From Alteromonas macleodii (GTDB taxonomy: Bacteria; Pseudomonadota; Gammaproteobacteria; Enterobacterales; Alteromonadaceae): DNA of 64,000 bases. The notes below the pieces were generated by a model. The model saw only the letters and a list, made by a program, of their open reading frames with translations, was not told where the DNA came from and did not search any database. Of the stretch, positions 21,746 through 39,525 are shown one piece after another (position 1 is the stretch's first letter; every line of letters starts with the position of its first letter). The stretch lies in the NCBI RefSeq assembly GCF_903772925.1, contig NZ_LR812090.1, positions 2,190,333 through 2,254,332 of the forward strand, read 5' to 3'. A program made the translations under genes and the position numbers.

Positions 21746-21759
21746 TGAATACGTATGCA
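21746..21759 (+). promoter_or_regulatory. Candidate LacI-family (MalR-type) operator, copy 1
   Basis: TGAATACGTATGCA is a near-palindrome centred on a CG dinucleotide (ATACGTAT core), as is usual for LacI-family operators. The identical 14-mer occurs upstream of three more glucan genes. It lies 117 bases before the TonB receptor ATG, with TTGCAT 14 bases earlier as a possible -35 element. Confidence 0.8.
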
Positions 21760-21876
21760 GGCAATTGTGCAAAACCTAGGGCATCTATAGCATTGTCCCC
21801 GTGAGATGTATTGTCATTTATTTGTCATAAGAACAACAAAAAGACAACAACTATAACCGTATGGGACACCCGTTTT

Positions 21877-24693
21877 ATGAAACAATTTAAACCCAACCTA
21901 ATTAAAGCTGCGCTTATTTCAGGCGGTATGGCATTTGGAAGTGCACCTGCACTAGCTCAAGAAGCAAACACTGATGCTGTTGATGAAGCTAATCTAGAAG
22001 TTATTCAAGTAAGCGGTATACGCGGCAGCCTACAGCGTGCTCAAGCAATTAAAATGGATAATACGTCCATTGTTGAAGCGCTTTCAGCTGAGGATATCGG
22101 TAAACTTCCTGACACAAGTATTGCAGAATCAATTGCACGTCTACCAGGTGTTACTGGTGAGCGTCGCAACGGTCGAACAAGTGGTATCTCGGTCCGTGGT
22201 TTTAACGAAAATTACGTTGGAACGTCTTTAAATGGCCGTGAGCTTTTGGGGATGGGTGACAACCGAGGGGTTGAGTTTGACCTTTATCCTACGGAAATTA
22301 TTTCAAACATTCTGGTATACAAAACACCGGAAGCGGGCATGACCACGCAAAACATCGGTGGCTCAATTGACCTTCAAACTGTTAAGCCTCTTACAGCAGA
22401 AAGCACCTTTACCGTAAACGGTACATTCGAGAAGAACGCTGAAGATTCTCCGAATCCAGATTTTGATAATGATGGACACCGCGTCTCTGTAAACTTTGTT
22501 GACCAATTCGCAGACGATACAATTGGTTTAGCATTAACCGTTGCAACAATGGAATCGCCTCGTCAAGAGCAACAGTTCCGCGGTTGGGGTTATGCCGGTA
22601 TTAATTTTGACAATGAGCGCCGTGCTCTTGACCCTGTAGAAGTACCAGAAGATACAGTTGTACTTGGTGGACATGACTCTTTCCAACGTTCTGCCATGCT
22701 AGAACGTGACTCTTTTGCAGCTGTTGTTGAGTGGGCACCGACAGATAAGTTAAATATTCAACTTGATGCGCTTTACATCGATTTCGTCGAAGACGACGTT
22801 CGTCGTGGTCTTGAAGAAGGTGGTGCAGAGTGGGGTACAAGTGCTTATACCATCACAGGTGTTGAAGACGGTCTTGTTACCAGTGGATACTCTGACGGTT
22901 TCTACAGTGTTGTGAGAAACGATGCTCGTCGACAGGAAGCTGATCTAACCACTGTAGGTATTAACGCTGAGTACCAAATTAATGATTCTTGGACACTGGA
23001 AGTTGATTACTCTACAGGTAAAGTAGAAAAAGAAATCATTGACGTAGAAAGTTACTCAGGTGTTGGTCGTGCAGGCACAGAAGGTCGCCCTCTCACTGCT
23101 CGCAGTTGGGAAATGACCTCTACCGGTGTTATGTTCTCAGACCACCCAACTATTGCGCCAGTTGACTTAACTGACCCAACACTTATCACATTAGCCGGCC
23201 CACAAGCATGGGGTGCACCACCTCTATTAGAGTCTGATGGTCAAGACGGCTTCGTAAACCAACCTGTTTTCGAAGAAGAGCTTGATACATTGCGCTTCGA
23301 CCTTAAAGGTTATGTAGATTGGGGTGTGGTTACAGGTCTTTCGGCAGGTGTTGTTTATTCTGATCGTTCAAAATCTAAAGATAACAACGGTGCTTATTTA
23401 ACGGCTCCTACATATCCAGGCGATGCAGCAATTCCAGACGTATTAGGTGTAACAAATCTAGATTTCATCGGTATCGAAGGCATTTTAGCGTATGACTCGT
23501 TAGGCTTATATGAAAGCGGATATTACATCGAAAGTGATGCCAGCCGTGTTCAAAATGATCGCCTAGGTGATACCTACACGGTAGACGAAGAACTCATTAC
23601 GCTTTACACCAAATTAGATTTGGAAATGGAGTTCGGTGATATCTGGGTACGCGGTAATGTAGGTGTTCAAGTTGTAAACGCAGACCAGCAGTCTACAGGT
23701 TTCTCAACTACATCAGATACAGACGGTTACACTATTGCTAATCCAATTAGCGGCGGTGCTGACTACACAGATGTGCTTCCAACGTTGAATCTATCGGCTG
23801 AAGTAGCGGAAGGTCAGTTTGTGCGCCTAGGGTTAAGTAAAGTAATTTCTCGTCCGCGTATGGACGATATGCGCCCGAATACACAGGTTACTTTCTCATT
23901 TAACGATAACCAAATTGAAAGTACAGACATTGAGAACGGTCCTTGGAGTGGTAGTGCTGGTAACCCGGAGCTTCGTCCACTTGAAGCGAACCAGTTTGAT
24001 TTAGCTTATGAAAACTATTTCGCTGATACGGGTTACGTTGCAGTGTCTTTCTTCTACAAAGATATTAAGAACTGGCACCGCAGCACATCACTCGTTGCTG
24101 ACTTTACTGACTTCTATATTCCAGATCTTCATCAAGGTTCTGAAGGCCAAGCGCCTATGTTGTTCGAAGGTCAAGTAGGCAGTGTGCTAGACGGTTTTGA
24201 AGGCTTTGTACGTGGCTACGAATTGCAGGGCTCGCTACCATTTGACCTTGTACATGAATCTCTAGAAGGTTTTGGCTTATTTGCAAGTGCTACCTTCATG
24301 GACGGTGAAGTTGATGCAGCGCCAGGTCAAAGTGAAACAAGAATTCCAGGCCTTTCAGAAGAGTCTTACAGCATGACTTTCTTCTACGAAAGCAACGGTT
24401 TCGAGTTCCGTTTAGCTGCAACGAAGCGTGATCAATACTTGACTGAAGAGCGTGGTTTAAGTCTTGCGTTAGTTGATGCAACTAAGCAGGGTGGAACGCT
24501 TGTCGATGCCCAAATTGGTTATGACTTCGGCGAATCTGGTATCGATTACCTAGAAGGTTTACGTGTAACGCTTCAAGCACAGAACTTGACTGACGAGGAC
24601 GATATTCAAGCATCTGCTGCTGACGGACGCCAAATTACACAGTTCCAGACTTACGGAACAAACTACTTGTTAGGTTTTAACTACAAGTTCTAA
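21877..24693 (+). CDS. TonB-dependent receptor (Xanthomonas/Caulobacter-type), glucan locus
   Basis: An outer-membrane beta-barrel transporter driven by TonB. I start it at the ATG at 21877, which yields the signal peptide MKQFKPNLIKAALISGG ending near ALAQ; the frame is open upstream to 21811 but adds a non-signal sequence. The mature N-terminus holds the TonB-box-like LEVIQVSGIRGSL, then the plug domain (DIGKLPDTSIAESIARLPGV, ISVRGFNENY, LNGREL), and a barrel of roughly 650 residues ending in LLGFNYKF with the terminal Phe expected for outer-membrane insertion. Length is 938 residues. The operator upstream and nearby pullulanase and amylases suggest maltodextrin or another alpha-glucan as ligand. 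Confidence 0.92.
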   Translation: MKQFKPNLIKAALISGGMAFGSAPALAQEANTDAVDEANLEVIQVSGIRGSLQRAQAIKMDNTSIVEALSAEDIGKLPDTSIAESIARLPGVTGERRNGRTSGISVRGFNENYVGTSLNGRELLGMGDNRGVEFDLYPTEIISNILVYKTPEAGMTTQNIGGSIDLQTVKPLTAESTFTVNGTFEKNAEDSPNPDFDNDGHRVSVNFVDQFADDTIGLALTVATMESPRQEQQFRGWGYAGINFDNERRALDPVEVPEDTVVLGGHDSFQRSAMLERDSFAAVVEWAPTDKLNIQLDALYIDFVEDDVRRGLEEGGAEWGTSAYTITGVEDGLVTSGYSDGFYSVVRNDARRQEADLTTVGINAEYQINDSWTLEVDYSTGKVEKEIIDVESYSGVGRAGTEGRPLTARSWEMTSTGVMFSDHPTIAPVDLTDPTLITLAGPQAWGAPPLLESDGQDGFVNQPVFEEELDTLRFDLKGYVDWGVVTGLSAGVVYSDRSKSKDNNGAYLTAPTYPGDAAIPDVLGVTNLDFIGIEGILAYDSLGLYESGYYIESDASRVQNDRLGDTYTVDEELITLYTKLDLEMEFGDIWVRGNVGVQVVNADQQSTGFSTTSDTDGYTIANPISGGADYTDVLPTLNLSAEVAEGQFVRLGLSKVISRPRMDDMRPNTQVTFSFNDNQIESTDIENGPWSGSAGNPELRPLEANQFDLAYENYFADTGYVAVSFFYKDIKNWHRSTSLVADFTDFYIPDLHQGSEGQAPMLFEGQVGSVLDGFEGFVRGYELQGSLPFDLVHESLEGFGLFASATFMDGEVDAAPGQSETRIPGLSEESYSMTFFYESNGFEFRLAATKRDQYLTEERGLSLALVDATKQGGTLVDAQIGYDFGESGIDYLEGLRVTLQAQNLTDEDDIQASAADGRQITQFQTYGTNYLLGFNYKF

Positions 24694-24708
24694 TCGCTTC
24701 GTGTGTGT

Positions 24709-24776
24709 AAAGCCACCTGCTGCTTTTTGTTTTAGCTTATGCTAAAAGAAAGCAAACGGTGGCTTTTCTTTTTTGT
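24709..24776 (+). terminator. Long terminator hairpin after first TonB receptor
   Basis: An outer stem AAAGCCACC / GGTGGCTTT encloses an inner interrupted stem built on TTTTAGC TTAT GCTAAAA, and the whole is followed by a T-rich run. It separates the receptor from the halogenase-like gene, though read-through may feed the latter. Confidence 0.8.
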
Positions 24777-24820
24777 ATAAAGAAAAATCGTTAATAGTAG
24801 CTGATAAATTCGAGACGTTT

Positions 24821-26341
24821 ATGCTTACCCCTCTTAAAAAATCTATAAACCGCGTCGTAATAGCAGGAGGCGGTACTGCCGGTTGGTTAGCTGCTTCACT
24901 TTTGAAGAAGCTGCTTGGCCAGGCTATTGAAATTACGCTTGTGGAATCTGAAGCCATAGGTACGGTTGGTGTTGGAGAAGCAACCATTCCTCCAATTCGA
25001 CTCGTAAATCAAGTATTGGGTATAGACGAAGCTCAGTTTATTCACGACACTAAAGCTACGGTTAAACTCGCCATTCGTTTTGAAAACTGGAAGACTAAAG
25101 GAGAATGTTACTACCACACCTTCGGAGCTCCTGGCAGAAGTATGGCATTTTGTCATTTCCATCACTATTGGGTGAAGGCTCGCCAACAAGGTTTAATGAA
25201 CGATTTGTGGGATTATGATCTGAATTATCTCGCTGCTGAAGCGGGAAAATTCGCCCAAATTAATGCAAAAGACCCCGTTTTAGAACTTCCGTTTGCCTAC
25301 CATTTTGACGCCAGTCTGTATGCGCAGTATTTGCGAAAGCTAAGTGAACAAATGGGCGTAGTGCGTGTAGAGGGTAAGATCGCAAGAGTACAACGTTGTA
25401 ATGACAGCGGATATATACAAGCGCTGCACCTGGAAAGTGGAGAAGTCATTGATGGCGATTTATTTATAGATTGCACCGGTTTTAAAGGCTTGTTGATTGA
25501 AGGTGCTTTAGGGGCAGGCTATGACGACTGGTCCCACTTATTACCCTGTGACAGTGCGCTGGCAGTCCCGTCAGAAAGGCACGAAAAAACCGCACCGTAC
25601 ACGCGCTCTATAGCACACGATGCAGGGTGGCAGTGGCGAATTCCGTTACAACATAGGAATGGTAACGGTCATGTTTATAGCTCTCGTTATATAAGCGATG
25701 ACCAAGCCTGTGACACTTTATTATCAAACTTAGATACTAAACCACTGGGCGATCCAAAGCTGATAAAATTTACAACCGGTAGAAGGCGAAAGCAGTGGTA
25801 TAAAAACGTGGTGGCGGTAGGCCTATCAAGCGGATTTCTAGAGCCTCTAGAATCAACTAGCATTCACCTTATTCAATCAGCAATTGTGCGTTTAATTCAG
25901 CTGTTTCCGCACAATGGTGTGACAAAGAGCTTAATTGACGAATACAACAAACAATCAGAACTCGAATTCGAACAAATCAGAGATTTTTTGGTATTACACT
26001 ATGTAGTGAATGAAAGAACGGACAGTGCCTTTTTTAACGATATGCGCAACATCACGCTGCCAGACTCATTAGCCCATAAGATTGAACTTTTCAAAGAAAA
26101 TGGTGTTCTTCAAAGAGAACAAAACGATCTTTTCCTTGAAAGTTCTTGGCTTCAAGTTTTATACGGACAGGGTGTAATGCCAAAGGATTACCATGGCTTA
26201 GTAAATAGCGTATCCGATGCACAATTAAATCAAATGTTAACAAAATTGCTAGAACTTAAAAGAGAGCCTATTGCTAAATTGCCTTCACATGACGATTACA
26301 TAAACGGGATGGTTGCGAAGTACAAGCGTTCAATGAAGTAG
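24821..26341 (+). CDS. Flavin-dependent tryptophan halogenase-family protein
   Basis: The protein has the fold signature of FADH2-dependent halogenases such as PrnA and RebH. The N-terminal GGGTAGW flavin-binding motif is followed by VKLAIRFENW, whose Lys82 aligns with the catalytic lysine. Next come AGWQWRIPLQHR, matching the GWxWxIP motif, and GFLEPLESTSIH, which holds the conserved Glu. Length from the ATG at 24821 is 506 residues. An upstream TTG at 24773 lies inside the terminator and is unlikely to be used. It sits between two TonB receptors; this pairing with Xanthomonas/Caulobacter-type receptors is recurrent in bacteria, but the substrate is unknown. No separate flavin reductase gene is adjacent. 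Confidence 0.85.
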   Translation: MLTPLKKSINRVVIAGGGTAGWLAASLLKKLLGQAIEITLVESEAIGTVGVGEATIPPIRLVNQVLGIDEAQFIHDTKATVKLAIRFENWKTKGECYYHTFGAPGRSMAFCHFHHYWVKARQQGLMNDLWDYDLNYLAAEAGKFAQINAKDPVLELPFAYHFDASLYAQYLRKLSEQMGVVRVEGKIARVQRCNDSGYIQALHLESGEVIDGDLFIDCTGFKGLLIEGALGAGYDDWSHLLPCDSALAVPSERHEKTAPYTRSIAHDAGWQWRIPLQHRNGNGHVYSSRYISDDQACDTLLSNLDTKPLGDPKLIKFTTGRRRKQWYKNVVAVGLSSGFLEPLESTSIHLIQSAIVRLIQLFPHNGVTKSLIDEYNKQSELEFEQIRDFLVLHYVVNERTDSAFFNDMRNITLPDSLAHKIELFKENGVLQREQNDLFLESSWLQVLYGQGVMPKDYHGLVNSVSDAQLNQMLTKLLELKREPIAKLPSHDDYINGMVAKYKRSMK

Positions 26342-26415
26342 GTTACTTAAAGATTTTCTATGTTATTTTGCGTATTCTTAACGCATTAGCGAGGTAAATA
26401 AACGCGCATTCTATT

Positions 26416-26441
26416 AAGCAGCCATATGGCTGCTTTTTTAT
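26416..26441 (+). terminator. Intrinsic terminator after halogenase-like gene
   Basis: AAGCAGCC ATAT GGCTGCTT forms a tight stem followed by a T-run. Confidence 0.88.
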
Positions 26442-26513
26442 TTCTGATAATAAAATGTTAACTAAATTGCTAAAAAACCACGATTCATTAAATATATGTT
26501 TCTCATATGTAAA

Positions 26514-26527
26514 TGAATACGTATGCA
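26514..26527 (+). promoter_or_regulatory. Candidate LacI-family (MalR-type) operator, copy 2
   Basis: TGAATACGTATGCA, identical to copy 1, lies 112 bases before the second receptor ATG. The spacing from operator to start codon is nearly the same as at the first receptor gene. Confidence 0.8.
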
Positions 26528-26639
26528 TAGCATTGCTCCCTTTTTATACAAACCAGTAGTATTTGGTGTTGAACCATAAGAGGCATTTTTGGGTGTGGTA
26601 TTCCTAAAAATGTCGATAATAAACAAGGATGGGACACCA

Positions 26640-29600
26640 ATGAAAACATTCAAACCCAGCACTATCATGGCGGCCTTGATCAGTAGTGGGGTCGCGTTTA
26701 GTGCGCTGCCGCTCTATGCTCAAGAGTCTCCAGACACACCCGTAGATGAAGTTGAACGACCAGATGAAGATACCTTAGAGCGTATCGAAGTACGTGGTTT
26801 CAGTACCAGCTTAATTCAATCACTAAACCAAAAACGTTTCTCTGACACGGTTTCTGAGCAAATATCTGCAGATGACCTTGGCGGGCTTCCCGACGTATCT
26901 ATGGCCGATGCTCTGACCCGCTTGCCGGGTATCTCGGCAGTGCGTACCGGCGGACAAGCGGCGCAAATCAATATTCGCGGTTTATCAGGTGACTTTGTTT
27001 TTTCTACGTTAAACGGTAGGGAGCAGGTATCCACCAGCGGAAGTCGCGCTATTGAATTTGACCAATATCCGTCTGAGCTTATTAGCGAGGCAGCGGTTTA
27101 TAAATCTCCCAAGGCATCGCTAATTGAAGGCGGTATTGCGGGTACGGTAGAACTAAAAACAGCATCACCACTTGCCATTGAAGAGCAACATAAATTTAGC
27201 GCTAACATGCGTGGTATGTATAACGATAGAGCATCCGAAATAAGCGATGCTACAGAATACGGTCATAGACTAAGCTTTTCTTATCAAGGTAAATTTCTAG
27301 ACGATACCCTAGGTGTATCATTGGGTTATGCACGTCTATTCCAGCCAAGCGTTTCTACGCAGTTCATCGGTTTAGCTTATAACGGTCAGGTAGATGTTGA
27401 TGGCCTGGAAGGGGATACCGACGGCTCGGCAGACTGTCCAAACTGTGAGCTCATTTCAGAAGGTTTTGAGATGCAGCACAAGGGCGGTGAAGAAACGCGC
27501 GATGGCTACGTTGCGGCGTTTGAATGGGCGCCTATCGATACATTCACCTTAAAAGCTGATGCCTTCATTTCAAAATTTGATTCTGAAGCATTTGCTCGGG
27601 GATTTCGCGTTAAGTTAGGCGGTATCAACGCGGGTATTACTAACCCGGTTGTAGTAAACAACAGCGTCGTTGGCGGTACTTTTTCTCGCACAGACAATAG
27701 CTTCACCCGAGTTGAACTGGTAAACGACGACAATCAAGACTTCGACAGTGTTACTAACTTAGGTGTTAATGCTAGCTGGGAAATATCACCGGATTTAGCA
27801 GTTCAGTTTGACGTATCTCGTTCAAGTGCTGAAAGTGACTTTAGAAACGGCTTGTTATGGTCGCTTGTAGGCGAAGATGCGACAGCTGCGAACCCAGTAT
27901 TTGATGAAAACGTTCAAATATCTTATTTGCTGAACGGCTTAAACCTGCCTGATATTGGTTTTAACCAAACTGATGCCTTTACCGATTTAGACCGGGTCAT
28001 GGTGAGCAAGTACGGTATCTATCCATTTGAAAACAAAGATGAGCTAGATGCATACCGTGTCGACTTCCAGTATTACGTAGACGCACCAATCATCTCTGGT
28101 TTTGAATTTGGATATCGTTATTCAGACCGGGAATACAACAACGATCGCTCTGTCTTTGAATACGGTAATGACAGTGCCTTTTCAGTCAGTGAACCGCCAC
28201 TTCGTTTAACGTCAGACATGGTTGAACAAGTTGATTGGAGCGGTGATTTTGGATATTTCCCAAGCTATTTATCAGTCGATTTAAACAGTGCGCTCAATGC
28301 TTGGTTCCCAGAAGGTAGACCGCAGCCTGTTCAAACATGGGGGCCTGGAGCTGCTGGCGTTATCAATGGCCCAGGAACAGGCCCAGCTACAGCGTGGACA
28401 CTGCAAGAAAGCGGTGATGTATTTGAAACCGTAAACTCGGCTTACTTAATGGCAAACATCAACACTGAAATTGGTAGTATTCCTGTTACGGGTAATATCG
28501 GTGTTAGATACGTTAAAAGCAAACAGAGCTCAACTACACTGCAGCGCGCTACCCAGCTTATTCAAGACTTAGAAACGGGGACGTCGGTTGAGGTAAGCGA
28601 CCCTACGGCAGGCGCGCAAAACATTACAGATGACGTAGGGCTCATCAATAATTTTTATCGTCCAGCGTTAATCAGCCACGAGTATTCAGATGTACTGCCC
28701 TCTATTAACCTGAACTTTAAACTAACTGACGATACTCAGCTTCGAGTAGCTGCCGCAAAAGTAATGGGGAGAGCGCCAATTAACCGTTTTGCGGCGAATG
28801 CGTCTACTACTATTGAAACAGTTACTGCGTTCCAAGACAGAGACTCAGGTGAAATCACGCTTTCAAACCCAACAGCAAGGGTTAGTGGTAATGCCCGTAA
28901 TAGCCCGTACTTAGAGCCGTTTTACGCTACACAGTACGATGTGTCATGGGAATATTACTTCTCAGATACAGAAGGGGCTCTGGTTGTAGCGGGTTTCTAT
29001 AAAGACATTGAGTCATTTGTAGAAGACATTGAAATAGAGCCTTACGACTTTGAAGCAAACGGCATAGTCATTCCAGACAACGTAAGCGTTCCAGTCTACT
29101 TAACCCCTGAATTTGCAGGGCAAGAAGCTGAACTAGCAAGGGATGAAAACGGCGATCCTATCTTTGTTACTGTGCCTACAGAAAACGGAAGCTATAGCAC
29201 TGCGGTAAATAACGCAGAAGGTGGCTACATTAGAGGACTAGAAGTCGCCTACACGCAAATTTACAGCATGCTACCTGGGTTATGGTCAGGCTTAGGGGTT
29301 AGCGCAAGCTACTCATATACGGAAAGTGAAATTCAGCGCACCCTTGGCGATGGCGTTTATGCCGCTAATTTACCAGGGCTTTCTGAAAACGTGGCAACAC
29401 TAACCGTTTTCTGGGAATACGAGGGCTTTGAAACCCGCCTATCTAGTCGCTATCGCGATGCCTTCGTATCTCAGCAAGTAGCGGTTAACGATCAGGTTGT
29501 TAACTTTGATGACGAACTGGTTATTGATTACCAAGCGTCTTACGAAATTAACGACAATTGGAGCGTTCTGTTTCAAGTAAACAATCTAACGGATGAGCCA

Positions 29601-29690
29601 ACCAAAAGCTATTTCGCGTCAGAAGAGCAAACCGGCACTATTCAGTACTTTGGCACCCAATATTACCTAGGAATGACATATCAACTATGA
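26640..29690 (+). CDS. TonB-dependent receptor, second paralog of the glucan locus
   Basis: A second outer-membrane TonB-dependent transporter, 1016 residues from the ATG at 26640. That ATG is preceded by AGGATGGGACACC and gives the signal peptide MKTFKPSTIMAALISSG ending near LYAQ. It is clearly related to the first receptor: the plug shows DDLGGLPDVSMADALTRLPG, INIRGLSGDF and LNGREQ, and the barrel ends in YYLGMTYQL. A CPNC pair in residues about 265-285 lies in a predicted extracellular loop. The stop codon overlaps an ATG in frame with the pullulanase gene, so the two are almost certainly co-transcribed; alpha-glucan uptake is the inferred role. Confidence 0.92.
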   Translation: MKTFKPSTIMAALISSGVAFSALPLYAQESPDTPVDEVERPDEDTLERIEVRGFSTSLIQSLNQKRFSDTVSEQISADDLGGLPDVSMADALTRLPGISAVRTGGQAAQINIRGLSGDFVFSTLNGREQVSTSGSRAIEFDQYPSELISEAAVYKSPKASLIEGGIAGTVELKTASPLAIEEQHKFSANMRGMYNDRASEISDATEYGHRLSFSYQGKFLDDTLGVSLGYARLFQPSVSTQFIGLAYNGQVDVDGLEGDTDGSADCPNCELISEGFEMQHKGGEETRDGYVAAFEWAPIDTFTLKADAFISKFDSEAFARGFRVKLGGINAGITNPVVVNNSVVGGTFSRTDNSFTRVELVNDDNQDFDSVTNLGVNASWEISPDLAVQFDVSRSSAESDFRNGLLWSLVGEDATAANPVFDENVQISYLLNGLNLPDIGFNQTDAFTDLDRVMVSKYGIYPFENKDELDAYRVDFQYYVDAPIISGFEFGYRYSDREYNNDRSVFEYGNDSAFSVSEPPLRLTSDMVEQVDWSGDFGYFPSYLSVDLNSALNAWFPEGRPQPVQTWGPGAAGVINGPGTGPATAWTLQESGDVFETVNSAYLMANINTEIGSIPVTGNIGVRYVKSKQSSTTLQRATQLIQDLETGTSVEVSDPTAGAQNITDDVGLINNFYRPALISHEYSDVLPSINLNFKLTDDTQLRVAAAKVMGRAPINRFAANASTTIETVTAFQDRDSGEITLSNPTARVSGNARNSPYLEPFYATQYDVSWEYYFSDTEGALVVAGFYKDIESFVEDIEIEPYDFEANGIVIPDNVSVPVYLTPEFAGQEAELARDENGDPIFVTVPTENGSYSTAVNNAEGGYIRGLEVAYTQIYSMLPGLWSGLGVSASYSYTESEIQRTLGDGVYAANLPGLSENVATLTVFWEYEGFETRLSSRYRDAFVSQQVAVNDQVVNFDDELVIDYQASYEINDNWSVLFQVNNLTDEPTKSYFASEEQTGTIQYFGTQYYLGMTYQL

Positions 29691-29773
29691 AAAACAACAT
29701 CTTAGGTAATTTATTTGGCGACGCACAAAAACGTTCAGTTGCCAAAAATAGCGAAAATATTCAGGAGAATTTT

Positions 29774-32700
29774 ATGTTTACTAAAAAGAAAGTAGTGCGG
29801 ACAGCGTTACTTTTAGTAGGCGCTTATACACTTACGGGTTGCGGCGGTTCTGGCGTAGAGTCAGGCACAAACGATTTGCTTACTTGTGAAGTGCCCAATG
29901 TACCTAATGCAGCAGGAACGGCCTGCGAGCCGCCGCCTCCTATTCAATGTGACGCGCCGTTAGTACCTAACGAAGCAAACGACGCGTGTGAAGCTGGGGC
30001 CGATCCAAGTCTACCTGCGCCTGTATTTACCCCGTCATCTAATCAAGCGGTACTATATTACAATCGCGCTGCGGTTGACGCGGATAATTCTAGTAACGAC
30101 GCTGCTTATGAAGGATGGCGACTACATACTTGGAACAATGACGAATGTGATGCCTATGCTGACGCAGACACGGATTGGGCGAACGGTCGAATTCATAGCG
30201 GTATCGATCCGAACTATGGGGCCTATTGGATATTAGATCTTAAAGAAGGTTACGGCAGCTGTCATAACTTCATCATTCACAAAGGTACTGATGATGCAGG
30301 TAAAGAGATGGGTGGCGGTGATTTTCAAGCTTCATTAGTACAAGACGATGAAACTTTTGTGCGAATGAACTTTACTCTTTCGGGCGAACCAACGATTTTT
30401 GAATTCCCGATCATGTCGCTTGGGCCACAGCCGGTTGATATAGAAGGCTTTGGTGCCCATTGGTTAGATGCGAACACCATTTTATGGGATGTTCCCGAAA
30501 CTGTATCAGAAGTGAAACTTCACTATTCAGCCCAGGCTGATTTACAGAGCACCCTAGAAGAGGGTATCAATGGTAATGAAGTAGCGCTAATGAGTACAAC
30601 ACTTACCGAAGAGCAATCTGCTCGCGCATTGCATTTATCTTCGATGCAGGCGTGGGAAGGAGACTGGTCGGTTGAAGATGCGAAAACTGTACTGACGACA
30701 CAAGCGGTCGTTGGAGGATATGATGCAGACGGTGCACTTGTAGCAGCAACCGGTATTCAACTGGCAAACGCAATTGATGCACTTTACACCATGGGTGAAG
30801 ATGATGCCGACGAGGCACAACTTGGCGGGGTTTATACAGACCAAGGTATTACCGCTGCGCTGTGGGCGCCTACCGCTTCGAATGTCGACCTTTTGCTTTA
30901 TAACGATGATAAAACGTTAAGTCAGCGTATAGATATGGTACGTGATGACGCGTCAGGCGTATGGCGCTATGAAGGCGATATGTCGCTAGACCGTCAGCTT
31001 TATCGCTATGAGGTTACGGTATATCACCCTGTTACAGGTAACGTAGAAACCCTGCTTGTAACAGACCCATATTCTGTGTCGCTTAGCACAAACGGTCGTT
31101 TCTCACGCTTTGTAAACCTTGCCGATGAAGATTTAAAACCTGAGGGGTGGGATACTCACACCATTCCTACGGTAGAAAATTATGAAGACGCGGTTATTTA
31201 CGAAGGTCACATACGTGATTTCAGCGTGCGCGATATGTCTACTTCCGAAGAAAATCGTGGGAAATACCTCGCCTTTACCGAAGAGGGAACGGCACCGGTT
31301 GAGCACCTTAAAAAGTTGGTAGAGGCAGGGCTAACCTATTTTCATATCCTTCCAGCGAATGACATCGCAACTATTGATGAAGACCCAACTAACACTGTTG
31401 ATTTGTACGATACAGTGGGCAAACTTTGTCGCTTAAATAGCAGTGCTGCGGTATGTGAAGAAGAAAGCGCGGACACATTATTGATTGATGTTTACAACGC
31501 TTACGACCCGTTATCACAAGCGGGTAAAGCTCAGCAGTTGACCGATGACTTACGCAATCTGGATACGTTCAATTGGGGGTACGACCCTCATCACTTTAAT
31601 GCGCCTGAAGGTAGCTATGCATCAAGTGCTGAAGGTGTTGAACGTATTGTAGAAATGCGCGCTATGATCCAAGCGCTTCATGAAATGGGGCTTCGTGTTG
31701 CACTCGATGTGGTTTATAACCATACCAACGCATCTGGTATTTTCAGTAAGTCTGTTCTAGATAAAGCTGTACCAGGGTATTACCACCGTTATGAGGTAGA
31801 TAGTGGGGCGATTGTCCGCGAAACGTGCTGTGATGACACAGAACCACGTAATGTGATGATGGAAAAATTCATGGAAGACTCGTTGCTTATGTGGGCTGAA
31901 CACTACAAGTACGACTCTTTCCGTTTTGACATCATGAGTCAGGCAACCAAAGACACCATGGTACGCCTTCGTGATGCTGTTAAAGCTATTGATGAAGACA
32001 ACTACTTTTATGGCGAGGGTTGGACCAAAATAGACCGCGGTTACGAGCAAGCCAGCCAGCTCAATATGGCCGGTACTGAAATTGGTACTTATAACGATCG
32101 CATTCGTGAAGCTATTCGTCAGGGCGCTATATTTCGACCCGAAGATGATGGGCTGTTAAGTGCACAAGACCGTGTGAAAATGGGCATGATTGGTACGCTT
32201 AAAGACTATGTATTGGAAACCTCTTCAGGCAGTGCTGGTGCGACGAGTAACTTGGGCGGCTATGCAGAAGACCCCGCAGACATCATTAACTATGTGTCTA
32301 AACACGATAATGAAACCTTGTGGGACCAATTAAATTACACGCTTCCACAAGACATCACGTTAGCGCAGAGAGTGCGCGCACAAAATGTGGCTATGGGCAT
32401 TAACCTAGTGTCTCAGGGGATTCCATTTCTACAGATGGGCGGCGAAATGCTTCGCTCTAAATCAATGGATCGAAATACCTATGACTCGGGTGACTGGTTT
32501 AACTATGTAGATTTCACATACGAGACAAATAACTGGAATGTAGGCTTACCGTTAGCACAAGACAATGAAGCCCGTTGGGAAGAAATGGGTGAATTTATTT
32601 ACAACCCTAACCGTGCAGCTTCTATGGCGGACATTATGTTTGCATCAGACGTATTTGCGGAGTTGCTAAACATTAGAATGACCAGTCCTTTGTTTAGATT

Positions 32701-34105
32701 AACCTCGGCGGAAGATATTATCGATCGTATTGGGTTCCACAATATTGGTTCACGCCAACAGCGTGGTCTTATCGCAATGAGTATTGACGATGGTGTATCA
32801 GATAACAGCGAAGTATCTCGTCAAGACCTAGATATGATGAACGATGCGGTGATGGTTCTGGTTAACACGGGTTACGAAGAGAAATCTATCACTGTAAATA
32901 CAGCAACCGGCTTTTCACTTCACGCAACACAAATGAACTCAGTTGATGCCGCAGTACGTGGTGCAACTTTTGTTGAGGGTGAAGACGTTAACGGAACCTT
33001 TACTGTACCTGCACTGACTATTGCTGTGTTTGTTAAGCCTCAGTCTGGGGCTCAAGGGTACGGTCTATCAGCGTATGCAACTTCTGGCGCGCCTGACGTT
33101 GTGCCCTACGGCGATACCCTTACTTACCTTCGTGGAGACATGAACGGTTGGTCAACGGATGATGCATTTACTTATCAAGGTGACGGTGTATATACGGCTA
33201 CAGCTGCGCTTGAAGGCGGTGTAACTTATGGCTTTAAGTTTGCCTCTGAGGATTGGAGCACGGTGAACTTTGGTGCTGCAGATGGTGAAGATGGGATGGT
33301 AATAGCAAAAGAGGAGAAAGTACTTGCTCGGACTAATACTAACCTGTCGTTTACACCTGATATCAGTGCAACATACCTGTTTACCATCGATGCATCAGAC
33401 AGCGAAGCGCCTATATTAATGATTGAAAACGAAGAACCCTACGTTGGAACGCCTGTGTACCTTCGTGGTGCAATGAACGGGTGGGGTACAGACGATGAGT
33501 TTTCTTACCAAGGTGGTCGTATCTATACCTTTGCTCGAGATATTGAGCCTGGCACGTACGAGTTTAAAGTGGCGTCCGAAGACTGGAGTACAGTGAACTT
33601 TGGTGCGTTGTCTGCCGACGATGCCGACCGTAACTTAGCGCCAGGTCAAACCCTTGGTTTGGCTGCGACTAACGATAACCTTGTTCTAAACATTGAAACT
33701 GCTGATCGCTATGTGTTTGTGTTCAACGTGACTGACTTAGATGCCCCTACCATTGGTGTATTTAAAGAAGCATTTTGGGGAGACACCCAAGTTTATATTC
33801 GCGGTGGTATGAACGGTTGGGGTGTAGCAGATATGTTTGAGTATCAAGGAGAGGGTGTTTACGCAGCCGACATCGAGTTAAGTGCAGGTAGCATCGAGTT
33901 TAAAGTTGCCTCTGAAGATTGGTCAACGGTAAACCTTGGTAATCCTAACGATGCCGCGAGTAATATCGTCACGCCAAGTGAGCCTAAAATTTTGGGAGCG
34001 AGCAATAACAATTTGATGATTGAAATCGCTGAATCTGGCCTTTATGAATTTAAGGTTGCCGGGCCCGATGGTAATGCACCCATGTTGACTGTAACGATGA
34101 AATAA
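29774..34105 (+). CDS. Lipoprotein pullulanase-type alpha-1,6-glucosidase with three C-terminal repeat modules
   Basis: This large enzyme cleaves alpha-1,6 branch points of pullulan, starch or glycogen. AGGAG precedes the ATG at 29774, giving a lipoprotein signal ending LTGC; an in-frame ATG at 29687 overlaps the receptor stop but lacks a signal peptide. Domains in order are a Cys-containing linker, a CBM41-like module (about 65-195), pullulanase N-terminal and CBM48-like domains to about 470, and the GH13 catalytic barrel. The barrel shows VVYNHT, nucleophile Asp719 (FRFDIMS), Glu748 (FYGEGW) and Asp845 (KHDNET), followed by a C-terminal beta domain. Three 111-residue repeats begin near 1118, 1229 and 1341 (RGxMNGW and KxASEDWSTVN) and probably bind starch. 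The total is 1443 residues. Confidence 0.92.
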   Translation: MFTKKKVVRTALLLVGAYTLTGCGGSGVESGTNDLLTCEVPNVPNAAGTACEPPPPIQCDAPLVPNEANDACEAGADPSLPAPVFTPSSNQAVLYYNRAAVDADNSSNDAAYEGWRLHTWNNDECDAYADADTDWANGRIHSGIDPNYGAYWILDLKEGYGSCHNFIIHKGTDDAGKEMGGGDFQASLVQDDETFVRMNFTLSGEPTIFEFPIMSLGPQPVDIEGFGAHWLDANTILWDVPETVSEVKLHYSAQADLQSTLEEGINGNEVALMSTTLTEEQSARALHLSSMQAWEGDWSVEDAKTVLTTQAVVGGYDADGALVAATGIQLANAIDALYTMGEDDADEAQLGGVYTDQGITAALWAPTASNVDLLLYNDDKTLSQRIDMVRDDASGVWRYEGDMSLDRQLYRYEVTVYHPVTGNVETLLVTDPYSVSLSTNGRFSRFVNLADEDLKPEGWDTHTIPTVENYEDAVIYEGHIRDFSVRDMSTSEENRGKYLAFTEEGTAPVEHLKKLVEAGLTYFHILPANDIATIDEDPTNTVDLYDTVGKLCRLNSSAAVCEEESADTLLIDVYNAYDPLSQAGKAQQLTDDLRNLDTFNWGYDPHHFNAPEGSYASSAEGVERIVEMRAMIQALHEMGLRVALDVVYNHTNASGIFSKSVLDKAVPGYYHRYEVDSGAIVRETCCDDTEPRNVMMEKFMEDSLLMWAEHYKYDSFRFDIMSQATKDTMVRLRDAVKAIDEDNYFYGEGWTKIDRGYEQASQLNMAGTEIGTYNDRIREAIRQGAIFRPEDDGLLSAQDRVKMGMIGTLKDYVLETSSGSAGATSNLGGYAEDPADIINYVSKHDNETLWDQLNYTLPQDITLAQRVRAQNVAMGINLVSQGIPFLQMGGEMLRSKSMDRNTYDSGDWFNYVDFTYETNNWNVGLPLAQDNEARWEEMGEFIYNPNRAASMADIMFASDVFAELLNIRMTSPLFRLTSAEDIIDRIGFHNIGSRQQRGLIAMSIDDGVSDNSEVSRQDLDMMNDAVMVLVNTGYEEKSITVNTATGFSLHATQMNSVDAAVRGATFVEGEDVNGTFTVPALTIAVFVKPQSGAQGYGLSAYATSGAPDVVPYGDTLTYLRGDMNGWSTDDAFTYQGDGVYTATAALEGGVTYGFKFASEDWSTVNFGAADGEDGMVIAKEEKVLARTNTNLSFTPDISATYLFTIDASDSEAPILMIENEEPYVGTPVYLRGAMNGWGTDDEFSYQGGRIYTFARDIEPGTYEFKVASEDWSTVNFGALSADDADRNLAPGQTLGLAATNDNLVLNIETADRYVFVFNVTDLDAPTIGVFKEAFWGDTQVYIRGGMNGWGVADMFEYQGEGVYAADIELSAGSIEFKVASEDWSTVNLGNPNDAASNIVTPSEPKILGASNNNLMIEIAESGLYEFKVAGPDGNAPMLTVTMK
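33125..34102 (+). repeat. Three tandem repeats of about 335 bp at the pullulanase 3' end
   Basis: Three in-frame copies start near 33125, 33458 and 33794, a period of 333-336 bases. Each encodes the pattern Y-[LI]-R-G-x-M-N-G-W, then YQGxGxY and KxASEDWSTVN. They have diverged at the base level, which argues for old duplication rather than recent expansion. Confidence 0.85.
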
Positions 34106-34149
34106 AAGCTCATCAGAAAATTTAGTTAACGTCTAAGTGTTATCAATTT

Positions 34150-34179
34150 AAAAGCCGCGACCTTGTTCGCGGTTTTTTT
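34150..34179 (+). terminator. Intrinsic terminator after pullulanase
   Basis: AAAAGCCGCGA / TCGCGGTTTTT (one G-T pair) forms an 11-bp stem followed by further T residues. Confidence 0.88.
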
Positions 34180-34273
34180 CTTCTTGGCATATCTCTTGAT
34201 TCTCTTGTAGGATAATTGTTACCGGAAGTGGTCCTACCAGAAGGTTATGAATGTATCTACAGGGAGAGAACAG

Positions 34274-35134
34274 ATGAAAAGTGCATTAGTTGTAGAAGGT
34301 GGCGCTATGCGCGGAATATTTGCGGCTGGCGTACTAGATAAATTCATGGAGCAAGACTATTACCCCTTTGATTTTACGCTAGGGGTGTCCGCTGGGGCGA
34401 CAAATTTGTCGACTTACGTTTCCAAAATGCAAGGTTTGAGTAAAACTATTATCACCCAATATGCAACGAAGCGAGAGTTCTTTAGTCCGCTACGATTCAT
34501 AAAAGGTGGTCATATGACAGATGTGCATTGGTTATGGCATCATTCAAAGCAATCAATGAACATTCCCTCTCCAGGTGAAAAGAGCAGTATGCCCTTGTAC
34601 GTGGGTATTACGAATGCTGAATCAGGTGAATGTGAATATATTCAGGCCACAGAAACTAATGTAGACGAATTGATGGTAGCATCTTGTGCGCTACCTACCG
34701 CATATCGAGATGAAATAATCATTAACGGTACGCGCTACCTGGATGGCGGAGTTGCAGATGCAATACCTGCAATTAAAGCTTATAACATGGGGGCAAGGGA
34801 CATTACCGTAATACTTTCTCAACCACTTGGGTTTACTAAGCCTGAAGTAAAATCAACCTGGTTGATGCAAAAGATGTATGGAAACCAACCCGCAATTCTA
34901 GAAAAAATGCTTAAGCGCGCGACCATTTATAATGAAACCCTCGATTTTTTTAAACAACCACCGACCGACTGCATCATTCGAGTAATAGCACCGGATGAAG
35001 CTTTCTGCGTTAAACGACTTACTATGGATAAGAAGAAGTTATTGAGAGGTTATGGGCAGGGTAGGCGTATGGCCCGACGTCATCTTAAAAATCTTAATTC
35101 AAATGCTGATGGTTTAAATTACCAAATAGCCTAG
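34274..35134 (+). CDS. Patatin-like phospholipase (YjjU-type)
   Basis: A predicted cytoplasmic lipid acyl hydrolase with the Ser-Asp dyad of patatins. The oxyanion loop is EGGAMRGIFAAGVLD, the nucleophile elbow is GVSAG with Ser39, and the aspartate is in LDGGVAD. The ATG at 34274, preceded by AGGGAGAGAACAG, is preferred over the in-frame ATG at 34247. The protein has 286 residues, a short patatin resembling E. coli YjjU. It shares no obvious function with the surrounding glucan genes, has its own terminator, and lacks an export signal. Confidence 0.87.
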   Translation: MKSALVVEGGAMRGIFAAGVLDKFMEQDYYPFDFTLGVSAGATNLSTYVSKMQGLSKTIITQYATKREFFSPLRFIKGGHMTDVHWLWHHSKQSMNIPSPGEKSSMPLYVGITNAESGECEYIQATETNVDELMVASCALPTAYRDEIIINGTRYLDGGVADAIPAIKAYNMGARDITVILSQPLGFTKPEVKSTWLMQKMYGNQPAILEKMLKRATIYNETLDFFKQPPTDCIIRVIAPDEAFCVKRLTMDKKKLLRGYGQGRRMARRHLKNLNSNADGLNYQIA

Positions 35135-35829: not shown

Positions 35830-36339
35830 GTGCAAATAGCAAATCAAAAAATTTCGATTGGGCTAGTTAACCCAAAAAATCCAGTCAACGTAGCATCTAT
35901 TTTACGTGCTGCTGGATGCTACGGTGTCGCTAGCGTGTTTTATACGGGGCAGCGTTATCGTTTCGCTAAAGACTTTAATGCAGATACGAAAGCGTTTCAT
36001 AAGGTTATTCCGACGGTTGGCGTTGATAATTTACGGGATGTTGTACCAGAGGGGGCGTCCGTAGTTGCGGTTGAACTTGTTGAAGGCGCTGAGCCTTTAC
36101 CAACGTTTGAACACCCAGAAAATGCCTTTTATATTCTAGGCCCTGAAGATGGAAGTGTAGGCGAAGACACTCTCTCGTGGTGCGACCACGTTGTTTATGT
36201 ACCCACGTATTCGTGTATGAATTTGGCGGCAACAGCGAATGTTTTACTGTATGACCGCCTATCAAAGTCTGATTTTGTAAGTGGGGATGCGCTTATCAGA
36301 CAAAGCCGAGATACCAATAATAAGACAAAGATAAAATAG
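35830..36339 (+). CDS. SpoU/TrmH-family (SPOUT) RNA methyltransferase
   Basis: A 169-residue SPOUT-fold methyltransferase likely to modify tRNA or rRNA. NPVNVASILRAAGCYG matches SpoU motif 1 (usually N-x-G-A-x-x-R-x-A), YILGPEDGSVGED matches motif 2 (usually G-x-E-x-x-G), and VYVPTYSCMNLAATANVLLYD is the knotted SAM-binding motif 3. Several consensus positions differ from TrmL and TrmH, so the specific target cannot be named. The start is GTG with only a weak ribosome binding site. It is followed by the acyltransferase gene after 100 bases. Confidence 0.83.
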   Translation: MQIANQKISIGLVNPKNPVNVASILRAAGCYGVASVFYTGQRYRFAKDFNADTKAFHKVIPTVGVDNLRDVVPEGASVVAVELVEGAEPLPTFEHPENAFYILGPEDGSVGEDTLSWCDHVVYVPTYSCMNLAATANVLLYDRLSKSDFVSGDALIRQSRDTNNKTKIK

Positions 36340-36440
36340 CGTTTTAAATATTAATTTAAAACAATATACCAAAGGCTACTGCTGCGAACAGGAAGTTACC
36401 CACAAGCCTAATAATTAAGATAAATTAGGGGACTTTTGCG

Positions 36441-37352
36441 TTGAAAACAACAACAATGAGCGCTGCTCGTGCGCTAAATAGTGCTGTAACTAACAAGTTA
36501 AACCAGTTACCTCGACAACTGCTTAAAGCATTTCCACGCCGATTGTCACTTGAAGAAACTATCACCAGCTTCTTTTTTAGCCGTTATGAACTCGTTATAG
36601 CTAACGAAGAAAATGAAAAACAAGTGAGCTATAAAACCCGTCATAAAGTTTATTGCGAGGAAATGAAGTTTGAGCAAAAAAACGCGGCAGCCATTGAAAA
36701 AGATAAATACGACGATCGCGCCATCAACTGCTACATAAAACACCGACCAACAGGCGAATGCGCAGGTACCATTCGTTTGGTCTTGCCGACCGAAGCAGGG
36801 TTATCGCTGCCTTTAGAAGAAAAGTGCGCAGATGCTTTTGATGACGGTTCATTGCTTCCCTCTAGTTGCGACCCTACGAGCATTTGTGAGATATCAAGAT
36901 TGGCAATTCCAAGAGAGTTCAGAGTTCGCCAAATGCGTTCGAAAATCCTGCCTGCCGATAAGCTTAAAAAGATAAAACAAAAGAAGAGTACACCATTTAA
37001 CGTAGAGCACTTTCCTTATCTTTCTATTGCGCTGTATTTAATGGCAACCAGTATCTGCCAACACTTAAATATTAAGCATGCATACGTTTTGATGGAGCCC
37101 AAATTAGCAAGAAGAATGAAAGCATTTGGTATTCATTTCAATCCAGTAGGAGATGCCGTAGAGTTTAACGGTAAGCGTGTTCCCTATAGGCTATCTACGA
37201 ACGTATTATTAGAAGACTTAGCTAAGCCGCTAAAAAGTTTTCACAAGAAGATCCACAGTAAGCTTGATAATGCGTTACACGCTGTTGAAACTGTTCCGAC
37301 ACATACCGCTCGTCCCATACAGAAACCATTGCGTGTGGCACAAGCGGCTTAG
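36441..37352 (+). CDS. FeeM/exosortase-associated-type N-acyltransferase
   Basis: The 303-residue protein resembles the GNAT-like acyltransferases annotated as PEP-CTERM/exosortase-system-associated and related to N-acyl amino acid synthases (FeeM) and autoinducer synthases. The diagnostic part is the region YKTRHKVYCEEMKFE, then a block with DDRAINCYIKH and GECAGTIRLVLP, and later SICEISRLAIPREFR. The N-terminal 40 residues are amphipathic and basic; the C-terminus is a low-complexity basic tail. The start is a TTG eight bases after TAGGGGAC; an ATG at 36456 is the alternative. No exosortase, PEP-CTERM substrate or LuxR-type gene lies nearby, so substrate and product are unknown. Confidence 0.72.
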   Translation: MKTTTMSAARALNSAVTNKLNQLPRQLLKAFPRRLSLEETITSFFFSRYELVIANEENEKQVSYKTRHKVYCEEMKFEQKNAAAIEKDKYDDRAINCYIKHRPTGECAGTIRLVLPTEAGLSLPLEEKCADAFDDGSLLPSSCDPTSICEISRLAIPREFRVRQMRSKILPADKLKKIKQKKSTPFNVEHFPYLSIALYLMATSICQHLNIKHAYVLMEPKLARRMKAFGIHFNPVGDAVEFNGKRVPYRLSTNVLLEDLAKPLKSFHKKIHSKLDNALHAVETVPTHTARPIQKPLRVAQAA

Positions 37353-37374
37353 ACATTGTTGTAAAGCCATTTTT

Positions 37375-37402
37375 AAAAGCCGTCCTCTAGGGCGGCTTTT
37401 TC
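37375..37402 (+). terminator. Intrinsic terminator after acyltransferase gene
   Basis: AAAAGCCGTCC pairs with GGGCGGCTTTT (one G-T pair), followed by T residues. It ends six bases before the third operator-like site. Confidence 0.85.
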
Positions 37403-37407
37403 ATTTC

Positions 37408-37421
37408 TGAATACGTATGCA
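37408..37421 (+). promoter_or_regulatory. Candidate LacI-family (MalR-type) operator, copy 3
   Basis: TGAATACGTATGCA, identical to the other three copies, lies 64 bases before the amylase ATG at 37486. Confidence 0.8.
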
Positions 37422-37485
37422 TGTTTTTTAACATACATTTAACGCGTATCCTGTTGGCATCATTTACATTTTTGTCACGAAAACT

Positions 37486-39429
37486 ATGTTTAATAAAAAG
37501 TCGGGTTTTTCCCTTAAGCCTCTATCTGTTGCTATGCTTTCATTGAGTTTGATGGCGTGCACTGGTCCGTCGCCATCAGCAAATAATCAAACACACGAGG
37601 GCAAAGGAAGTAAGTCTTCAGCATCAAATCAACAAAGTGATATGTTAACGCATACGGATAACAGTGAAAGACAAGGTAAACCAGTGGTCTATCAGGTATT
37701 CACTCGACTATTTGGAAATACTAATTCTACTAATCAGCCTTGGGGTACGATCGAGCAAAATGGCGTAGGCAAATTCAGCGACTTTACCCCTAAAGCTCTT
37801 GAAGCCATCAAGGCTTTAGGCACCAGTCACATTTGGTATACCGGTGTGCCACATCATGCAGTAATCAATGACTATACTGACTTCGGTATATCAAATGACG
37901 ACCCCGATGTAGTGAAAGGCCGCGCTGGTTCCTCATACGCTGTAAAAGATTATTACAATGTTAATCCTGACCTAGCTGATAACCCAGCAAAGCGCCTAGA
38001 AGAGTTCGAAGCCCTGATTGAAAGAACTCATGCTGCGGGTATGAAAGTCATTATCGATATTGTTCCTAACCACGTGGCCCGCGATTATCATTCGCTTTCT
38101 GCCCCTGAAGGGGTAAGTGATTTTGGTGCAACAGACGATACGTCTGTAGAGTATGCCCGCGATAACAACTTCTATTATGTCGTTGGCGAAGCATTTAAAG
38201 TGCCTTCTGCTGATAATTACCAAGTGCTAGGTGGCGAGCCCCACCCATTGTCAGACGGTAAGTTCGATGAGTTTCCTGCAAAGTGGACAGGGAACGGTGC
38301 AAGGGCAGCGCAGCCAGATATTAACGACTGGTATGAAACAGTAAAGGTTAATTATGGTGTGAAGCCAGACGGTTCCTATGATTTTCCCTTGCTACCAGAC
38401 GAATACAGTCGAAAATCTATCGCAGAGCACGCCGCGTTTTGGCAAGGGAAAGATCTTCCCGACTCGTGGTACAAATTCAGAGACATTGCCCATTATTGGG
38501 TTGAAAAAGGGGTCGATGGATTTCGTTTTGATATGGCCGAAATGGTACCAGTAGAGTTCTGGTCTTTTCTCAACAGCAGCATTAAGCAAAAAGCACCTGA
38601 TGCATTCTTGCTGGCAGAAGTTTATCAGCCTGACAAATATCGCGATTACCTTCATAAAGGCAAGATGGACTATTTATACGACAAGGTAGGCTTTTACGAT
38701 ACGCTAAAAGCAATTATGCAAGGAAAGAGCAAGGTTAGTGACCTGGTCGCTGTTCACAAAGAAGTTAGCGATATTGCACCACACATGCTGCACTTTTTAG
38801 AGAACCATGATGAGCAGCGTATTGCTAGCCCTGATTTTGCAAGTAGCGCTGAAAAAGGTAAGCCTGCACTTGCCGTGAGTACGCTTATAAGCAGTTCTCC
38901 AACGCTGCTTTATTTTGGCCAAGATGTGGGCGAAGACGGCAGCGAAGAGACAGGCTTTGGCGACCCAACGCGTACGTCTATTTTCGATTACGTTGGCGTT
39001 CCTGCTCATCAGCGGTTTATGAATAATGGAAAATTTGATGGTGGTCAATCTACAAAGGAAGAAAAAGAACTGCATAAGTTTTACAAACGCGTGATGTCTA
39101 TCGCCGCTACTAACCCGGCCACTATTGGTAATTACCAAAGCCTCCACGCGCTCAATCTCGGCGTCGAAAATTCAGCGTATTCAGAGCAGCAATTTACATT
39201 TGCTCGTGTACAAGATGATCATGGTTTCTTGGTTATCGCAAATTTTAGTGATGCACCAGTAGGGGAAATAGAATTTACAGTACCAGCAAGCGTATTAAGT
39301 GCAAATAACAAAACTATTAGCCTTGAGCCACTTCTTTCTCATGACGGCATTATCTTAGAAAAAGGTGATGTTAACTACAGAGCCTCGTTATCACTAGATG
39401 GACTAGAGACGAAAGTATTTGCCTTCTAG
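37486..39429 (+). CDS. GH13 alpha-amylase-family lipoprotein
   Basis: A 647-residue glycoside hydrolase that should cleave alpha-1,4-glucans at the cell surface or periplasmic membrane face. The N-terminal signal ends in the lipobox LMAC, followed by a Ser/Asn-rich linker to about residue 65. The catalytic barrel starts at VVYQVFTRLFG and contains DIVPNH, the nucleophile in DGFRFDMAE, the acid/base Glu in LLAEVYQ and the third carboxylate in LENHDEQR. A C-terminal beta domain follows. It is headed by the third operator copy and appears to be monocistronic or to run on weakly into the next gene. Confidence 0.92.
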   Translation: MFNKKSGFSLKPLSVAMLSLSLMACTGPSPSANNQTHEGKGSKSSASNQQSDMLTHTDNSERQGKPVVYQVFTRLFGNTNSTNQPWGTIEQNGVGKFSDFTPKALEAIKALGTSHIWYTGVPHHAVINDYTDFGISNDDPDVVKGRAGSSYAVKDYYNVNPDLADNPAKRLEEFEALIERTHAAGMKVIIDIVPNHVARDYHSLSAPEGVSDFGATDDTSVEYARDNNFYYVVGEAFKVPSADNYQVLGGEPHPLSDGKFDEFPAKWTGNGARAAQPDINDWYETVKVNYGVKPDGSYDFPLLPDEYSRKSIAEHAAFWQGKDLPDSWYKFRDIAHYWVEKGVDGFRFDMAEMVPVEFWSFLNSSIKQKAPDAFLLAEVYQPDKYRDYLHKGKMDYLYDKVGFYDTLKAIMQGKSKVSDLVAVHKEVSDIAPHMLHFLENHDEQRIASPDFASSAEKGKPALAVSTLISSSPTLLYFGQDVGEDGSEETGFGDPTRTSIFDYVGVPAHQRFMNNGKFDGGQSTKEEKELHKFYKRVMSIAATNPATIGNYQSLHALNLGVENSAYSEQQFTFARVQDDHGFLVIANFSDAPVGEIEFTVPASVLSANNKTISLEPLLSHDGIILEKGDVNYRASLSLDGLETKVFAF

Positions 39430-39511
39430 ATAGTGTGTAAAGCTATAAACGAAATCTAATGCTAGAGATTTTATTTAAACGAGACACCCTGTGTATTGAC
39501 TTGGTGTCTCG

Positions 39512-39525
39512 TGAATACGTATGCA
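39512..39525 (+). promoter_or_regulatory. Candidate LacI-family (MalR-type) operator, copy 4
   Basis: TGAATACGTATGCA occurs 80 bases before the ATG of the cyclomaltodextrinase-type gene. TTGACT at 39497-39502 could be a -35 element, placing the operator over the -10 region; that would fit repression by occlusion. Confidence 0.82.

Follow-up and report, generated by a model that had tools for sequence, protein, structure and literature searches.

A predicted MalR regulon for alpha-glucan use in Alteromonas macleodii and its relatives, with a promoter geometry that suggests activation

A 64,000-base stretch of the Alteromonas macleodii genome (contig NZ_LR812090.1, positions 2,190,333 to 2,254,332; here called the window) carries a locus of alpha-glucan genes in which one 14-bp element, TGAATACGTATGCA, occurs four times without change (21746, 26514, 37408, and 39512, all on the plus strand). 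Here, we propose that this 14-mer is very likely the DNA site that would be bound by the LacI-family regulator encoded at 44854 to 45885, a MalR ortholog, and that it marks one alpha-glucan regulon; judged by sequence comparison, the existence of this MalR regulon is hardly in doubt. Taken whole, the explanation that we favor combines a MalR site, a single regulon, and activation from about position −48, and appears distinctly probable.

Results

Copies of the 14-mer in the A. macleodii genome

An initial annotation of the window had described four identical sites, 64 to 117 bases ahead of their genes. All four proved to be exact matches, with gaps of 117, 112, 64, and 80 bases to start codons at 21877, 26640, 37486, and 39606, respectively; from base composition, 0.00075 exact copies would be expected in a window of this size. 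The annotation had noticed no fifth copy, and we likewise found no further exact copy within the window. The whole genome (4,665,060 bases, one contig) holds five, the fifth (C1:2581141) lying 77 bases upstream of a gene for a secreted GH13 amylase that is unlinked to the locus in the window. A genome scan for sites away from carbohydrate genes, proposed at the outset as a check, left the regulon intact. With up to one mismatch, 8 sites were found versus 3 for a reversed control pattern; the three one-mismatch sites equal the control's number and are therefore not above chance by number. One of these precedes glgP (see below), and the others lie inside a BCCT-like open reading frame and before a nitroreductase-like gene (names assigned by eye). 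A weaker, extended regulon finds no support in the numbers, the genome having 57 sites with up to two mismatches versus 39 for the reversed pattern. Separately, a two-mismatch site, TGCAATCGTATTCA (plus strand, 20406 to 20419), stands just upstream of a SASA carbohydrate esterase gene.

Identity of the regulator and its co-occurrence with the site

The LacI-type protein matches PF00356 (helix-turn-helix) and PF13377 (periplasmic-binding-protein-like) above cut-off. It is 60% identical over 340 amino acids to the protein of a Shewanella locus (L262), with a near-identical helix-turn-helix, and 58 to 61% identical across ten Shewanella loci. An unbiased count of CG-centred 14-mers in these ten loci placed TACATACGTATTCA (9 loci) and TGAATACGTATGCA (8 loci) among the top four. 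In L262, sites precede a GH97 susB gene and an MFS-GH15 gene pair; passages of Rodionov et al. (2010, PMC2996990) report predicted Shewanella MalR sites before susB and malT-cga. Because of the identity, the near-identical helix-turn-helix, and the same site in Shewanella mal loci, we identify the gene as malR, on orthology judged from these sequence features. A scan of named genomes (Alteromonas, Salinimonas, Paraglaciecola, Bowmanella, Shewanella, and others) found TGMATACGTATKCA in 65 of 80 loci (81 matches), and the reversed control pattern gave 0 matches in 1.63 Mb.

The regulator and the site were also found together across genomes. In a 60-genome comparison that includes A. macleodii itself, an ortholog (60 to 100% identity) was present in 39 genomes, every one of which carried TGMATACGTATKCA (39/39), compared to 1 of the 21 genomes without an ortholog. 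The single fetched site of that one genome (G051) has near it only an RpoD-like open reading frame (named by eye), 402 bases away. Order-wide (247 genomes; regulator threshold E ≤ 1e-80), the regulator was found in 45 genomes, the asymmetric site in 50, and both in 43. All 45 regulator-bearing genomes have the site, 43 in asymmetric and 2 in symmetric form; the latter (G086 and G093) both carry TGAATACGTATTCA, together with TGCATACGTATGCA in G086 and TGAATACGTATGTA in G093. Among the 202 genomes lacking the regulator, which were scanned for the asymmetric form only, 7 had it, approximately chance level since about 0.025 per genome, or 5 in all, are expected by arithmetic. These counts support the initial proposal that the site goes with the LacI-type gene, and a check named at the outset, whether relatives keep the regulator but lack the site, came out in its favor. 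Three genomes of the same genus or family (G011, G204, and G215) have other LacI-type candidates and no ortholog, and no TGMATACGTATKCA was present among their TNNATACGTATNNA matches; G011, of the same genus, thus has other LacI-type proteins and neither the MalR ortholog nor the site. Three genomes of one genus (G075, G095, and G197) carry 7 to 9 TGMATACGTATKCA sites each, on several contigs, perhaps reflecting a wider MalR regulon.

Targets of the site in relatives

Of 158 sites counted in 40 genomes, all but two (one in G015 and one in G051) were retrieved, which left 156 for comparison. An alpha-glucan-type gene starts within 420 bases of 149 of the 156 sites; because the gene classes were built from the sites' own neighbors, this count is partly circular in class definition, although not in enzyme family. 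Target families comprise TonB receptors, GH13 enzymes, pullulanases, GH97, GH31, and the MFS permease, with further classes named SusB, AmyS, PulA2, AmyX, GH31, AmyN, AmyP, oligo16, and TBDR3. One representative per class was checked against Pfam, except for TBDR3, the third TonB-receptor class; TonB receptors and permeases were counted as alpha-glucan genes by homology and context. The maltodextrin regulon first put forward on four sites is therefore upheld in its targets, but it extends beyond those four, to the fifth exact copy and probably to glgP.

The 7 remaining sites comprise 4 without an obvious target and 3 before a PEP-CTERM-like protein (tail recognized by eye) of about 208 to 218 amino acids. 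Three genomes have the exact site 109 to 121 bases ahead of the gene for this protein (L148 1727-2350, with homologs in G021 and G025). The one representative compared with Pfam had no match, and the protein may be a new member of the regulon. In several genera, pairs of sites were seen in tandem, spaced by 30 or 33 bases, or about three helical turns (G038:C13:166090/166120; L268 12372/12402; L269 13785/13815; G095:C96:16873/16906; G197:C111:7730/7763).

Symmetry and orientation of the site

The 14-mer is even in length and centred on CG, and its core, ATACGTAT, is a perfect palindrome; each half has one deviating base (A versus C). CG-centred sites are given for 1173 of 1303 LacI-family regulators in a passage of PMC4052901. 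The LacI-family operator form claimed by the annotation stands as to center and near-palindromy, but in most promoters the position of the site looks unlike that of a classic repressor operator. Asymmetric sites, with one TGAATAC and one TGCATAC half, made up 149 of 156 in the first set (40 genomes) and 117 of 154 in 33 further genomes, a sum that stands apart from G086 and G093. Strict asymmetry is ruled out as a rule by the latter count and by the symmetric forms in those two genomes; across the sequences compared, asymmetry is a strong preference. In the five exact sites of A. macleodii, the TGAATAC half is always on the side away from the gene. A universal orientation rule is ruled out as well, as the AmyS, PulA2, AmyX, AmyP, and PEP-CTERM classes carry the site reversed, and the glgP site is also reversed.

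Promoter geometry

The geometry counts took in sites whose gene begins at most 420 bases away, leaving out matches at Amt, at other open reading frames of the window, and at glgP loci. When promoters of the receptor classes TBDR1 (28) and TBDR2 (27) and of the GH13-B class (23) were aligned on the site, a conserved TTG appeared 5 bases past it, followed by TAGTAT or TAGCAT 17 to 18 bases beyond the TTG. A sigma-70 scan with a frequency matrix placed the best −35 exactly at +5 in 8 of 13 forward classes. The best promoter was at +5 in 18/18 Shewanella sites and in 5/25 sites of a mixed group (Paraglaciecola and others), in which TTG was present in 17/25. TTG at +5 was present in 132 of 186 sites (background, 2.1%).

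The −10 element was held more widely. Across four forward sets, 159 of 198 gene-facing sites, in a count that also left out halogenase-facing sites, had TAnnnT at +27 to +29 (106/136 genus-centred, 18/18 Shewanella, 19/25 other named, and 16/19 fresh); in other three-base windows, TAnnnT averages 6 to 11%. The fresh set consisted of 20 order-wide regions from wider families, with 21 sites, 19 of them with a forward gene, and the −10 criterion had been set earlier than this sampling. Given a −10 hexamer at −12 to −7, the site is therefore centred near −47.5 or −48.5 by arithmetic. The geometry of a repressor, with the site over or downstream of the promoter, is not found where the −10 is at +28/29, and is possible in the GH13-A, amylase, and reverse-facing classes; exceptions to the geometry are these three and GH31. 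Visual inspection placed terminators or hairpins immediately before several GH13 sites, which leaves no room for an upstream promoter. The passages and titles on MalR that were available mention no fixed spacing between a MalR site and the −10.

The glgP site

A one-mismatch site, TGCATACGAATTCA, lies between pgm and glgP in the A. macleodii genome (region L271 1328-1380). Among glgP loci with enough upstream sequence, 21 of 29 have a site with up to one mismatch, approximately 150 to 180 bases before glgP. A terminator-like hairpin (−22 kcal/mol; z −5.0; equaled by 1 of 200 shuffles) takes in the A. macleodii site, which falls in part within its loop and 3′ arm. What is constant across these loci (L271 and L272 to L295) is TGCATACG-(AA or TT)-TTCA, or TGAATACGAATTCA in two of them, while the surrounding stem bases vary; two loci (L290 and L295) keep the site without that hairpin. 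This pattern of conservation makes it probable that the glgP site is a MalR site of variant sequence, embedded in part in the terminator of the upstream gene.

Organization of the locus

Site 1 (21746 to 21759), conserved in the TBDR1 class of relatives, is followed by a predicted promoter at 21765 to 21793 (TTGTGC, 21765 to 21770; 17 bases; TAGCAT, 21788 to 21793) that matches the footprint of the 28 TBDR1-class promoters at offsets 5 and 28, and then by TonB-dependent receptor 1 (21877 to 24693; Plug domain, TIGR01782). A tryptophan-halogenase-family gene (24773 to 26341) begins 79 bases past receptor 1; distant relatives (34 to 35% identity) also adjoin a site in G003 and G026. Site 2 (26514 to 26527) precedes a predicted promoter at 26533 to 26562 (TTGCTC, 26533 to 26538; 18 bases; TAGTAT, 26557 to 26562) and TonB-dependent receptor 2 (26640 to 29690; Plug domain, TIGR01782), whose stop codon is overlapped by the ATG of a pullulanase gene (29687 to 34105; TIGR02103 above cut-off). 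Site 3 (37408 to 37421) stands before GH13 enzyme A (37486 to 39429; 647 amino acids); here, a −10-like TATCCT (37447 to 37452) lies 25 bases past the site, a deviating spacing, with no TTG at +5. Site 4 (39512 to 39525) is followed by a predicted promoter at 39531 to 39559 (TTGGTC, 39531 to 39536; 17 bases; TAGTAT, 39554 to 39559), GH13 enzyme B with cyclomaltodextrinase-type domains (39606 to 41504), an MFS sugar permease resembling sucrose symporters, below the cut-off of that model (41543 to 43024), and GH13 enzyme C, counted from its first ATG (43026 to 44726; the listed open reading frame opens at a TTG at 42954). All of these features are on the plus strand, and the sites are exact; malR closes the locus on the minus strand (alternative start, 45876). 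The gene spacing fits the earlier suggestion that pullulanase and permease are included through operon structure. Genes for a GNAT/FeeM-like N-acyl amino acid synthase (36441 to 37352), a patatin (34247 to 35134), and a SpoU methylase (35830 to 36339) interrupt the alpha-glucan genes.

Discussion

We propose that a single alpha-glucan regulon under MalR would join two TonB receptors (for uptake across the outer membrane), the enzymes of debranching and hydrolysis (the pullulanase, the GH13 enzymes, the unlinked secreted amylase, and probably glycogen phosphorylase), and the permease of the inner membrane. Most likely, MalR would sit near −48, immediately ahead of a weak −35 region and a constant number of bases from the −10, where it would contact RNA polymerase and activate most of its target promoters when maltose or a maltodextrin is present; the geometry makes activation a likely main mode. 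The fixed spacing between site and promoter suggests switching on rather than off. A repressor usually needs only to overlap the promoter; an activator that contacts polymerase is recognized by a −10 at unvarying distance and a −35 that can be dispensed with. This agrees with Shewanella, where, according to passages of PMC5443562, mutant fitness in three species favors MalR as an activator: in Shewanella loihica, malR shows cofitness with malT (0.94, rank 1), which the authors interpret as activation, and they consider the "repressor" label of RegPrecise probably wrong.

Several observations weigh against this view. The genomes are related, and the counts are therefore not independent. TTG at +5, a test fixed beforehand, failed in the fresh set (3/19), which rules it out as the general −35 in the wider order; nevertheless, a −10 that is kept while TTG is mostly missing is as expected of activator-dependent promoters. 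TTG at +5 was also absent from the GH13-A class (0/21) and the amylase class (0/10), no TAnnnT at +27 to +29 was found in the amylase promoter of A. macleodii itself, and none was found at these positions in reverse-facing sites (0/15). Repression from an upstream position is also within the repertoire of LacI-family proteins. Finally, the transcript start given for Shewanella malT in a passage of PMC5443562 is >300 bases from the site, whereas the promoter predicted here lies about 40 bases past it, in line with the start predicted about 40 bases past the site in most targets. Both cannot be the sole malT promoter, and the two are reconciled only if malT has two.

The alternative that survives best is that MalR is a dual regulator, activating from about −48 where the TGAATAC half is distal and repressing where the site is reversed or lies over the −35 (secreted amylases, pullulanase type 2, and perhaps glgP). 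The existence of two geometries, with a −10 at +27 to +29 in 106/136 versus 0/15 sites, speaks for such a division, but the reverse-facing sites number only 15, from 7 classes, and their promoters are conjectural; we consider a dual role possible, though improbable on balance. A more specific form, in which a homodimeric LacI-family protein reads a lopsided operator (TGAATAC half facing away from the promoter, TGCATAC half facing it) and orientation sets the sign, is more tentative still on these sequences. It would give activation from a fixed position near −48 in uptake genes and a different result, possibly repression, at reversed sites before secreted amylases, pullulanases, and glgP, the last with its variant site nested in the terminator hairpin of the preceding gene.

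Repression is the usual mode of LacI-family sugar regulators. A classic repressor would be sugar-free MalR sitting on the site, blocking RNA polymerase, and being released by maltose or maltodextrin. RegPrecise annotates MalR as a repressor (as stated in a passage of PMC5443562), and two classes, GH13-A and amylase, have a −35-like hexamer that runs into the site (best offset −15); at reverse-facing sites, too, the site overlaps a −35-like match (offset −4). However, the −10 lies downstream at a fixed spacing across many promoters, Shewanella malR mutants resemble malT mutants (PMC5443562, in the same passage), and no site with up to 5 mismatches is present at 45801 to 46200, upstream of the regulator gene. 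We regard classic repression as unlikely.

It is very unlikely that another DNA-binding protein reads the site and that the LacI gene is a mere neighbor: linkage alone is compatible with this, and A. macleodii has 12 LacI-type matches, but the order-wide co-occurrence, the three genomes with other LacI-type candidates and no TGMATACGTATKCA, and a CG center like that of most LacI-family regulators (passage of PMC4052901) argue for MalR. Chance or a duplicated promoter cassette is scarcely credible, for although receptors 1 and 2 have flanks identical at 48 of 120 bases, the figure for the remaining five flank pairs is 29 to 42 of 120, the site outlives its flanks across genera, and the expected copy number, the site counts in named loci, and the alpha-glucan targets all speak against it.

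The MalR regulon described here is already known in kind, having been predicted in Shewanella in 2010. As outlined in PMC2996990, the Shewanella regulon likewise joins a LacI-type regulator, a sugar permease, a TonB transporter, SusB, and other alpha-glucan genes, and we found the same 14-mer or a one-base variant upstream of susB and malT-cga; in contrast, the locus here is dominated by two TonB receptors, a pullulanase, and GH13 genes. MdxR of Enterococcus faecium, described in passages of PMC3737153 as a LacI-family activator of maltodextrin genes, resembles MalR as we read it, although its host is Gram positive and the likeness is one of described role. TonB-dependent maltodextrin uptake, or its prediction, beside alpha-glucosidase genes, as here, appears for Caulobacter MalA and the Xanthomonas XCC2469 locus in a passage of PMC1790865. 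Among the literature titles listed for Alteromonas with MalR or LacI, none describes this site.

We conclude that the regulon is real and well delimited and that its kind is known. New here are its reach in Alteromonas and relatives and the constant promoter spacing from which activation is deduced. Extending the predicted Shewanella regulon to these organisms with a nearly letter-perfect site makes the starch-sugar regulons of common marine bacteria readable from sequence. In addition, the disputed view of this LacI-family MalR as an activator gains a possible structural basis in the fixed geometry, which also makes that view testable.

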